Of a stretch of 64,000 bases of DNA, positions 18,240 through 21,096 are shown piece by piece. Every line of letters begins with the position of its first letter. The stretch's first letter is position 1. The position numbers and the translations under genes are program-made. Origin of the DNA: Variovorax sp. RA8 (GTDB taxonomy: Bacteria; Pseudomonadota; Gammaproteobacteria; Burkholderiales; Burkholderiaceae_C); NCBI RefSeq assembly GCF_901827175.1, contig NZ_LR594662.1:5332001-5396000 (forward strand). The letters are read 5' to 3'. The notes beneath the pieces were generated by a model. That model was given only the letters and a program-made list of their open reading frames with translations. It did not search any database and was not told the DNA's origin.

Positions 18240-19475
18240 ATGTTCAGTTTCTTCAAGAAAAAGCCGGCCCCCGACAGCTCTGCGCCGGCGCCTGCGCCTG
18301 TCGAGACGCCGGCCGAGCCGCCGGCGCCCGCCAGGTCCGTGTTCTCGCCGTCCAGCTGGTTCGGCACCAAGCCCGTCGAGCCGCCACCCGCGGTGGCCCC
18401 TCCCCCCGCTGCGCCTGCTGCCCCTGCAGCGCCCGCACCTTCGCCCAGTGCCGAGGCGCCCGCGCCGGTGCCGGTGCCGGTGCCGGTGCCGGTGCCGGTG
18501 CCGGTGCCGGTGCCTGTGCCTGTGCCTGTGCCGGTGCCGGTGCCCGCGGTGGTGCCCGCGGAAGCCGCGCCTCCGGAGCGCAGCGGCTGGCTCGGGAAGC
18601 TCAGGACGGGTTTGCGCAAGACCGGCAACAGCATCACCGCCGCCTTCGTCAACGCCCAGATCGACGACGCCCTCTACGAGGAACTCGAAGAAGCCCTGCT
18701 GATGGCCGACACGGGCGTGAAGGCCACGGAATACCTGCTGGACGACCTGCGCCGGCGCGTGCGCAGCAACATGGCGACCGAAGCCTCGCAGGTCAAGCTC
18801 CTGCTGGCCGACGCCATTGCGGACCTGCTGCGCCCGCTCGAGAAGGAACTGGTGATCGGCGAGCACACGCCCACCGTGATCATGGTGGCGGGCGTCAACG
18901 GCGCGGGCAAGACCACCTCGATCGGCAAGCTCACGAAGCACCTTTCCAACGAGGGCGCTTCGGTGCTACTGGCGGCGGCCGACACCTTCCGCGCTGCGGC
19001 GCGCGAGCAGCTGCTGGTCTGGGCCGACCGCAACACGGTCGAGATCGTGAGCCAGGAGGGCGGCGATCCGGCCGCCGTGAGCTTCGACGCGGTCAATGCC
19101 GGCAAGGCGCGCGGCAAGGACGTGGTGCTGGTCGACACCGCCGGCCGGCTGCCGACCCAGCTGCACCTGATGGACGAGCTCAAGAAGATCAAGCGCGTGG
19201 TGGCCCGGGCCGACGCCACGGCGCCGCACGAGGTGCTGCTCGTGATCGACGGCAACACCGGGCAGAACGCCCTGGCCCAGGTCCGGGCCTTCGACGAAGC
19301 GCTGGGCCTGACGGGCCTGGTCATCACCAAGCTGGACGGCACTGCCAAGGGCGGCGTGCTGTGCGCGATCGCGCGCGAGCGGCCGATCCCGGTGTATTTC
19401 ATCGGGGTGGGCGAGAAGCTGGAAGACCTGGAGACCTTCAAGGCCCGGGAGTTCGCGCAGGCCCTGGTGGGATAG
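18240..19475 (+). CDS. ftsY: Signal recognition particle receptor FtsY
   Basis: GTPase that docks SRP-ribosome complexes at the inner membrane for co-translational insertion. It has 411 residues. The N-terminal acidic/membrane-targeting region is replaced here by a Pro/Ala/Val-rich linker (about residues 15-115) that includes 13 Val-Pro pairs. The NG domain follows with GVNGAGKTTSIGKL (G1), DTFRAAAREQL, DTAGRLPTQ and TKLDGTAKGG. It starts MFSFFKKK, a short basic anchor. The DUF962 gene follows 61 bases downstream. Confidence 0.95.
   Translation: MFSFFKKKPAPDSSAPAPAPVETPAEPPAPARSVFSPSSWFGTKPVEPPPAVAPPPAAPAAPAAPAPSPSAEAPAPVPVPVPVPVPVPVPVPVPVPVPVPVPAVVPAEAAPPERSGWLGKLRTGLRKTGNSITAAFVNAQIDDALYEELEEALLMADTGVKATEYLLDDLRRRVRSNMATEASQVKLLLADAIADLLRPLEKELVIGEHTPTVIMVAGVNGAGKTTSIGKLTKHLSNEGASVLLAAADTFRAAAREQLLVWADRNTVEIVSQEGGDPAAVSFDAVNAGKARGKDVVLVDTAGRLPTQLHLMDELKKIKRVVARADATAPHEVLLVIDGNTGQNALAQVRAFDEALGLTGLVITKLDGTAKGGVLCAIARERPIPVYFIGVGEKLEDLETFKAREFAQALVG
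18465..18542 (+). repeat. In-frame hexanucleotide repeat in ftsY (13 units)
   Basis: Thirteen tandem hexamers: eight CCGGTG, three CCTGTG and two CCGGTG. Each encodes Pro-Val, giving a stiff PV-rod in the FtsY linker. Because the unit is 6 bases, slippage changes linker length without breaking the frame. Confidence 0.95.
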
Positions 19476-19536
19476 CCCGGGTGGTGGCGCTTCTGGCATC
19501 ATGCTCAGGGGCCGCAGAGCCCGCCAGGAGACCGCC

Positions 19537-19998
19537 ATGCACAGCGCTGCCACGCCCCTGCCGGGCACGGACCGCAAGGTCGACCGCCTGCTCGCCCACT
19601 ACGGCGAGAGCCACCAGAACCCGACGAACGAGGCGATCCACATGATCGCCATCCCGGCGATCATGCTGAGCATCGTCGGGCTGCTGTACGCCCTGCATCC
19701 GTGGGTGGCCTACGCCTTCGTGGCCGCCAGCGCGGTCTACTACCTGTTGCTGCGCTCCGCGAGCTTCGTGATCGCGATGGTCATCTGCATCGCGCTGGCG
19801 CTGGCCGCGGTGCATGCGATGGGGGACCTTGTGCTCCCGATTTCCGCCGCCATATTCGTCGTGGCCTGGATCTTCCAGTTCATCGGGCACAAGATCGAGG
19901 GCAAGAAGCCCTCCTTCTTCGAAGATATCCAGTACCTGTGGGTCGGCCCGCTGTTCGTGCTGTCCAGGCTCTTCCTGCGCCTGGGCGTCCGCTGGTAA
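19537..19998 (+). CDS. DUF962 (Mpo1/YGL010w-like) membrane protein
   Basis: 153-residue protein with the conserved N-terminal HYGESHQNPTNEAIHMIAIP motif (His-rich, before the first helix), then about four membrane helices and a GHKIEGKKPSFFED loop with a further His. The family includes yeast Mpo1, a membrane dioxygenase of fatty-acid alpha-oxidation. The bacterial role is not established. The ATG at 19537 follows CCAGGAGACCGCC. It stands between ftsY and rpoH without obvious functional link. Confidence 0.8.
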   Translation: MHSAATPLPGTDRKVDRLLAHYGESHQNPTNEAIHMIAIPAIMLSIVGLLYALHPWVAYAFVAASAVYYLLLRSASFVIAMVICIALALAAVHAMGDLVLPISAAIFVVAWIFQFIGHKIEGKKPSFFEDIQYLWVGPLFVLSRLFLRLGVRW

Positions 19999-20105
19999 CA
20001 GTTGATTTCCGGGGCGTCGAGAGGGCGCCGTCCTATTCACAAGGCTCGGCAGAGGGATAGGTTGTGCCTATCCACCCCATTGAAACCCTCGGGGGAACCC
20101 TTGGC

Positions 20106-20132
20106 TTAGCACTCCATCCAACCGAGTGCTAA
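20106..20132. promoter_or_regulatory. CIRCE operator (HrcA site) in front of rpoH
   Basis: Perfect inverted repeat TTAGCACTC - 9 bases - GAGTGCTAA, identical to the consensus CIRCE element bound by the heat-shock repressor HrcA. A likely -10 box TAATAT (20130-20135) overlaps its right arm and a TTAGCA at 20106-20111 could act as -35 with an 18-base spacer. HrcA binding should therefore block the promoter. The rpoH start codon is 28 bases downstream. Confidence 0.93.
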
Positions 20133-20160
20133 TATGTCCCTGAACGAAGGAGTTTGCCCA

Positions 20161-21096
20161 ATGACAGCAATGTCCGGAGCCCCCGCCAACCAGCTCGCCG
20201 TCGCCAATCCCTGGTCGATGGTGCCTTCGCTGGGTAACCTGGACGCCTATATTTCCGCGGCCAATCGCCTCCCCCTGCTGACGCAGGAGGAAGAGCAGCG
20301 CTACGCGCGCCAGCTGCGGGACCACAATGACCTGGAAGCCGCCGGTGCCCTGGTGCTTTCGCACCTGCGCCTGGTGATCTCGATTTCCCGCCAGTACCTG
20401 GGGTACGGGCTGCCGCACGGCGACCTGATCCAGGAAGGCAATGTCGGCCTGATGAAGGCGGTCAAGCGCTTCGACCCCGACCAGGGCGTGCGCCTGGTCA
20501 GCTATGCCATGCACTGGATCAAGGCCGAGATCCACGAGTACATCCTGAAGAACTGGCGCATGGTCAAGGTCGCGACGACCAAGGCCCAGCGCAAGCTGTT
20601 CTTCAACCTGCGCTCGATGAAGCAGGGCTTCAAGGCCGGCTCGGCCGACGGCGACACCCACCGCGACACGCTGAGCGCGGACGAGGTTTCCCAGATGGCG
20701 AGCCGCCTGAACGTCAAGCGCGAGGAAGTGCTCGAGATGGAAACCCGCATGTCGGGCGGCGACGTGCTGCTCGACCCCAGCCCCTCGGATGACGGCGAGG
20801 ACGGTTTCGGCCCCATCGCCTACCTTGCGGACGCCTCGCAGGAGCCCACGGCCCAGATCGAATCACGTCAACGCGACCGGCTATCGACCGACGGGATCTC
20901 GACAGCCCTGGCGACGCTGGACGATCGCAGCCGCCGCATCGTGGAAGAGCGCTGGCTCAAGGTCAACGACGATGGCTCGGGCGGAATGACCCTGCATGAC
21001 CTGGCCGCGGTATATGGGGTGAGTGCCGAGCGCATCCGCCAGATCGAATCGGCGGCCATGAAGAAGATGAAGAAGGCGCTGGCGGAATTCGCCTGA
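20161..21096 (+). CDS. rpoH: RNA polymerase sigma factor RpoH (sigma-32)
   Basis: Heat-shock sigma factor, 311 residues. Region 2 contains DLIQEGNVGLMKAVKRFDPD and YAMHWIKAEIHEYILKNW. The RpoH-specific box QRKLFFNLR follows, and region 4 ends AVYGVSAERIRQIESAAMKKM. The ATG at 20161 is preferred because GAAGGAG lies 8 bases upstream. An earlier in-frame ATG at 20134 directly abuts the CIRCE operator and falls near the predicted transcription start. Control by HrcA is indicated by the operator. Confidence 0.94.
   Translation: MTAMSGAPANQLAVANPWSMVPSLGNLDAYISAANRLPLLTQEEEQRYARQLRDHNDLEAAGALVLSHLRLVISISRQYLGYGLPHGDLIQEGNVGLMKAVKRFDPDQGVRLVSYAMHWIKAEIHEYILKNWRMVKVATTKAQRKLFFNLRSMKQGFKAGSADGDTHRDTLSADEVSQMASRLNVKREEVLEMETRMSGGDVLLDPSPSDDGEDGFGPIAYLADASQEPTAQIESRQRDRLSTDGISTALATLDDRSRRIVEERWLKVNDDGSGGMTLHDLAAVYGVSAERIRQIESAAMKKMKKALAEFA

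Follow-up and report, generated by a model that had tools for sequence, protein, structure and literature searches.

In textbook accounts, HrcA/CIRCE and sigma-32 appear as heat-shock circuits that replace each other or run in parallel. The Bacillus-type CIRCE operator is located at the groESL and dnaK operons, and HrcA, which reads it, is kept active by free GroEL, according to work in Bacillus. A connection between this operator and rpoH, the gene for sigma-32, has been predicted previously in Geobacter sulfurreducens, where a perfect CIRCE lies at -51 from the start of rpoH; the portion of that report available to us describes neither a promoter overlap nor a sigma-E element at this site (PMC545781). 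A second input to rpoH is provided by RpoE-type factors. As stated in one study, the P3 promoter of Escherichia coli rpoH is sigma-E-dependent, and SigE of Bordetella bronchiseptica transcribes from the fam (rpoH) promoter region in vitro, so that an RpoE-family factor likewise drives rpoH in a betaproteobacterium; the word hrcA is absent from the text of this paper (PMC3490749). RpoE-type control of rpoH in Burkholderia pseudomallei is mentioned in two further papers, where it is cited as Vanaporn 2008 (PMC5994319, PMC5552950).

Here we describe the rpoH locus of the soil bacterium Variovorax sp. RA8 in a window of 64,000 nucleotides, the whole stretch of DNA that was analysed. As at groESL and dnaK, and as at groES of the same genome, the operator is a 9-9-9 CIRCE in a genome that carries hrcA. 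In contrast to those sites, it precedes the sigma-32 gene and appears to supply letters of the promoters themselves (Table 1).

Table 1. Features of the rpoH region, in window coordinates.
Feature	Position	Strand	Basis
ftsY, upstream neighbour	18240..19475	+	TIGR00064, over cut-off
GGAACCC, proposed sigma-E -35	20094..20100	+	67/80 close relatives have GAAC at the same -11 offset
CIRCE, HrcA operator, 9-9-9 inverted repeat	20106..20132	.	Perfect match; conserved upstream of rpoH
TTAGCA, proposed sigma-70 -35 from left arm, 18 bp from -10	20106..20111	+	Suggested by 4/6 match
TCCAA, proposed sigma-E -10 in CIRCE spacer, 16 nt from -35	20117..20121	+	Comparative and register test
TGC-TAATAT, proposed extended -10, right arm plus TAT	20127..20135	+	Comparative conservation
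AGGAG, Shine-Dalgarno	20148..20152	+	Read from sequence
rpoH (sigma-32), 311 aa	20161..21096	+	TIGR02392, over cut-off; QRKLFFNL stretch

A perfect CIRCE upstream of rpoH

The spacer ahead of rpoH contains TTAGCACTC-CATCCAACC-GAGTGCTAA (20106-20132), which fits the CIRCE pattern TTAGCACTC-N9-GAGTGCTAA with 0 mismatches, just as the original prediction had claimed, and the gene behind it is a genuine rpoH, its product scoring 395 bits against TIGR02392 (cut-off 323). With up to three mismatches allowed, this is the single CIRCE in the window (mean 0.02 in shuffled sequence) and one of only two in the 7.42 Mb genome, where a reversed-pattern control gave 0. The other site, at C1:1546323, precedes a 96-aa ORF that we take to be groES, having recognised it from its translation rather than by a family search. 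A search for hrcA, suggested along with the original prediction, returned one copy in the genome (PF01628, 225 bits, profile search), approximately 37 kb before the start of the window; since neither of the two CIRCEs adjoins it, hrcA has no CIRCE of its own.

The rpoH operator ends 28 bp before the start codon and lies over the proposed promoters, a placement that, judged by position, fits with the blocking of transcription of a heat-shock gene. The start of rpoH is likely the ATG at 20161, which follows AGGAG; the other in-frame ATG, upstream at 20134, falls within the proposed -10. Between ftsY and rpoH, a 165-aa ORF (19501-19998) had no NCBIfam match; in E. coli this place is occupied by ftsE-ftsX. 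Within ftsY itself, at about 18465-18545, Pro and Val codons alternate over a long stretch, a coding short repeat whose length may vary among strains.

Conservation of the operator and association with hrcA

The comparison of related rpoH upstream regions that had also been proposed at the outset favoured the predicted site: among 80 relatives retrieved from public genomes by RpoH, the nearest being Variovorax sp. JS1663 (95% identity), CIRCE precedes rpoH in all 80, perfect in 66, with one mismatch in 12 and with two in 2. In 61 genomes, comprising the source, members of its genus and members of further families within the order, CIRCE with at most two mismatches was found in 58, and exactly two in 51.

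We assembled an order set of 180 Burkholderiales genomes from 36 families (150 of 250 genomes of the order and 30 of 150 of the source's own family), taking the upstream regions of the rows with the best RpoH scores, chosen without regard to CIRCE, and scoring sites with up to four mismatches, a spacer of 9 nt only and a distance of at most 500 nt from the RpoH match. CIRCE was present upstream of rpoH in 169 of 171 genomes with hrcA versus 0 of 9 without. All 150 genomes of the own-family sample have hrcA; with that family left out, the counts are 139/141 versus 0/9 (one-sided Fisher, 7e-13); seven of the nine hrcA-less genomes come from one family and are therefore not independent. Counted by family, the operator is found at rpoH in 34/34 groups with hrcA and in 0/3 groups without it, the own family being counted apart (30/30). 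The two hrcA-bearing misses are G193, with a CIRCE-like site of 10-nt spacer, and G285, in which the left arm has decayed.

A similar picture emerges across the class. In a sample of 110 of 140 class genomes, picked by hrcA status and list order rather than by CIRCE, and scored with up to four mismatches and with spacers of 8-10 nt allowed at a penalty, the operator was present at rpoH in 80 of 85 genomes with hrcA (the exceptions being G482, G518, G547, G448 and G544) versus 5 of 25 without (one-sided Fisher, 5e-13). In each set, hrcA-less genomes past the first 20 were assigned by difference (10 in the order, 17 in the class), and the totals agree. Among the five class genomes with CIRCE and no hrcA match, four have 0-1 mismatches and the fifth has 3. 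These four (L392, L393, L331 and L379, from G531, G440, G499 and G525, respectively) may reflect recent loss of hrcA, a gap in the assembly, or a different reader of the operator. Two further peculiarities were seen: at L402 (G434) the perfect CIRCE before rpoH seems to be immediately preceded by another CIRCE-like palindrome, and G453 carries two RpoH genes, on contigs C325 and C289, both over the family cut-off. CIRCE at rpoH is the rule among the Burkholderiales with hrcA that we examined, and most genomes with hrcA in the class-wide sample have it too.

These distributions bear on the possibility that CIRCE is a conserved HrcA site that merely fine-tunes rpoH, sigma-32 being set mainly by translation and proteolysis in the manner of E. 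coli. Such a division of labour would be in keeping with the QRKLFFNL stretch of RpoH, similar to the RpoH-box region, a region that we take to be linked to stability control. Against it, 35 families of the order set have a near-perfect operator at rpoH, and CIRCE is missing from the hrcA-less genomes of that set and from most of those in the class sample, which points to a strong role. We regard a fine-tuning role as unlikely, although it is the strongest of the competing explanations.

CIRCE arms as proposed sigma-70 promoter elements

The -10-like TAATAT that had been described as running into the right arm occupies 20130-20135, shares 3 bases with that arm and is preceded by TGC; comparative data support this reading. 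The trinucleotide NAT follows CIRCE directly at rpoH in 80/80 close relatives and in 144/169 sequences of the order set (161/169 when A or C is allowed at the second letter), and in 54/79 of the class sample, or 66/79 with CT included. At groES CIRCEs, by comparison, NAT occurs in 0 of 19, and CAA or CAG stands in its place in 19/19; these sites derive from 32 scanned loci, 18 of the 19 belong to this genus and are thus related, and the rpoH detector labelled 2 loci. That NAT might simply be part of the HrcA site is ruled out by its absence from all 19, including the 18 from the same genus. The groES CIRCEs differ upstream as well, where each follows a promoter of sigma-32-like form: CTTGAAA, with CCCTTAT next in 18 and CCCCTAC in 1.

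Furthermore, in the order set 58/169 operators depart from consensus at left-arm letter 3 and 2 at its mirror letter in the right arm, a tighter right arm being what would be expected if it doubles as a -10. An extended -10 of the form TGnTAnn[AC]T is also present in 20 of 29 rpoH upstream regions that have neither hrcA nor CIRCE (shuffles: mean 3.3, max 10), "CIRCE-less" here denoting more than four mismatches, with two of the 29 (G487 and G559) resembling decayed sites. In family f45 of the order set (L144, L157, L174, L179, L195, L207 and L215), hrcA and CIRCE are absent in 7/7; ahead of rpoH, five have TGnTATACT or TGTTATAAT, one has TGATAATAT, and one has no element of such form.

The sequence comparisons support a right arm that runs into a putative extended -10 (TGC-TA(A/G)-NAT). 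The case for TTAGCA of the left arm as -35 is weaker. The left-edge forms of CIRCE in the order set (n=169) are TTAGCA in 90, TTGGCA in 38, CTGGCA in 19 and CTAGCA in 17, and a strict sigma-70 scanner returned 0 promoters at the rpoH upstream region, where the two proposed hexamers match at 4/6 positions each, 18 bp apart.

A proposed sigma-E-like promoter interleaved with CIRCE

The RpoE (ECF02) promoter consensus combines a GGAACTT-like -35, a gap of 16-17 nt and a TCnnA -10. GGAACCC-N16-TCCAA in the window has this form, and the genome encodes RpoE (TIGR02939, 254 bits, over cut-off). Among the close relatives with the GAAC block (mostly GGAAC) 11 letters before CIRCE, TCnnA falls within the CIRCE spacer in 67/67, versus 2 of the 13 lacking it. 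In other families the block is found at -13, at -15/-16 or at about -30 relative to CIRCE, and the -10 shifts with it: with GAAC at -13 the spacer starts with TC in 17/17, and with GAAC at -27 to -31 TCnAA lies entirely upstream of CIRCE in 6/6 sequences. Even within the own family, a genus-diverse sample has GAAC at -11 to -13 in 11/30 only.

The pairing was examined in the 186 of 249 sequences that have GAAC in -40..-8. GAAC-N16-TCnnA occurs in 139 of the 186, while every other gap from N11 to N22 reaches at most 20; with registers permuted, the mean was 56 and the maximum 78, and 139 was reached in 0/2000. Because rows of one family are related, a version that keeps a single row for each family and register was added, giving 29/60 versus a permuted mean of 14.1 and maximum of 21 (0/5000). 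Leaving out cases in which a CIRCE arm supplies the TC, the pair holds in 90/131 (22/59 in the order set alone), and it is found in the majority of rows in 19/31 families. In class genomes with hrcA it occurs in 54/85, gaps of 13-15 and 17-19 giving 0 to 9. Finally, the pair is present in 7 of the 29 rpoH upstream regions without hrcA and CIRCE (null mean 0.42, max 3).

Upstream of rpoH in E. coli K-12 there is TGAACTT-N16-TCTGA, which we take to be P3. The pair is of the same type (GAACTT-N16-TCTGA), though not interleaved with CIRCE: the best CIRCE site at E. coli rpoH has 8 mismatches in 250 nt, and E. coli was not among the genomes matching in the hrcA control search.

These results make it well supported, at the level of comparative sequence, that the pair represents a conserved rpoH promoter in many lineages, this genus included; in the present strain it would be used by sigma-E. 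A genome-wide search with one strict pattern gave 1 forward and 3 reverse matches, against 5 on each strand with the pattern reversed, so without enrichment, and for that reason we term the rpoH element only a "sigma-E-like promoter". A genome-wide sigma-E regulon drawn from this pattern was discarded, nothing standing above the reversed control, and no autoregulatory sigma-E promoter was evident by eye before rpoE.

It could be argued that HrcA controls rpoH through the sigma-70 promoter only and that the GGAAC/TCnAA pair, though conserved, is unrelated. Indeed, NAT is conserved more widely than GAAC, being retained in 13/13 relatives without GAAC at -11, 63 of the 249 CIRCE-bearing upstream regions have no GAAC in -40..-8, and the lack of genome-wide enrichment points the same way. 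However, the GAAC/TCnnA pair holds its 16-nt gap while shifting relative to CIRCE, it occurs without CIRCE (7/29) and has a counterpart upstream of E. coli rpoH, and Bordetella SigE transcribes Bordetella rpoH in vitro (PMC3490749). An unrelated pair is in our estimation less likely still than mere fine-tuning. A chance palindrome or inert remnant can be dismissed as next to impossible, being contradicted by the conservation, the genome count, the shuffles and the association with hrcA. These explanations overlap, and their likelihoods need not sum to one.

A probable composite switch at rpoH

The reading that we consider likely is that the rpoH spacer forms a composite switch, in which one HrcA operator overlaps a sigma-70 and a sigma-E promoter and HrcA, coupled to GroEL, represses both. 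It builds on four observations: the sequence anatomy, its conservation, the association with hrcA and the moving -35/-10 pair. The -35 and extended -10 of the sigma-70 promoter would largely coincide with the two CIRCE arms, and the -10 of the sigma-E (RpoE/ECF02) promoter would lie within the CIRCE spacer. The predicted starts, ~20127-20129 for sigma-E and ~20141-20143 for sigma-70, fall within the operator or right next to it, and HrcA bound there would be expected to block both.

In unstressed cells, HrcA would cover both promoters and hold sigma-32 low. Misfolded protein would occupy GroEL, causing HrcA to release and rpoH and groESL to be derepressed together; sigma-32 would then drive its own regulon, groESL presumably included (in this genome the groES CIRCE is immediately preceded by a sigma-32-like promoter), and GroEL would restore HrcA, closing the loop. 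Envelope stress would add rpoH output through sigma-E. One heat-shock system would thus probably control the other instead of running in parallel, and the whole sigma-32 regulon may come under HrcA.

The presence of hrcA, the conservation and the hrcA association lend strong support to the original prediction that HrcA controls rpoH. Two points were missed or drawn too narrowly in that account: a sigma-E-type promoter appears to be intertwined with the operator, and this organism is not alone in having such a site, as the 169/171 and 80/85 hrcA-bearing genomes of the order set and class sample demonstrate.

Published expression data are mixed. In a consortium, Variovorax WDL1 showed rpoH, hrcA, groES and groEL up together and grpE down, a correlation only, in the excerpt consulted (PMC5911999). 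In Xylella under nitrogen starvation, hrcA is reported to rise four-fold at 2 h and rpoH two-fold at 8 h and at 12 h (PMC3224663); this is not what simple repression of rpoH by HrcA predicts, and counts against it.

Novelty and significance

Within the passages that our literature search covered, no paper combines CIRCE with a sigma-E promoter at rpoH or tells how the two interleave. The survey of Permina and Gelfand 2003 (J Mol Microbiol Biotechnol 6:174) may already name rpoH as a betaproteobacterial CIRCE target. The separate links are known already, HrcA-rpoH by prediction in Geobacter and sigma-E-rpoH by report in Bordetella and Burkholderia pseudomallei. The fused operator-promoter architecture and its reach look new.

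We give even odds to the broader proposal that joint gating of rpoH by HrcA and sigma-E at a fused operator-promoter is ancestral in the Gammaproteobacteria (in the GTDB sense, betaproteobacteria included) and that the E. coli state is derived. If true, sigma-32 without HrcA and a free-standing sigma-E P3, as in E. coli, would be what was left after loss of hrcA and CIRCE, and the "parallel" heat-shock systems would have been hierarchical from the start. On the composite-switch reading itself, GroEL load would set sigma-32 synthesis via transcription, and envelope stress would feed in at the same place through sigma-E. The arms and spacer of the 27-bp operator would serve also as promoter elements, with several registers fixed in different lineages, which would make the rpoH operator a clean case for the evolution of operators and promoters under shared letters.
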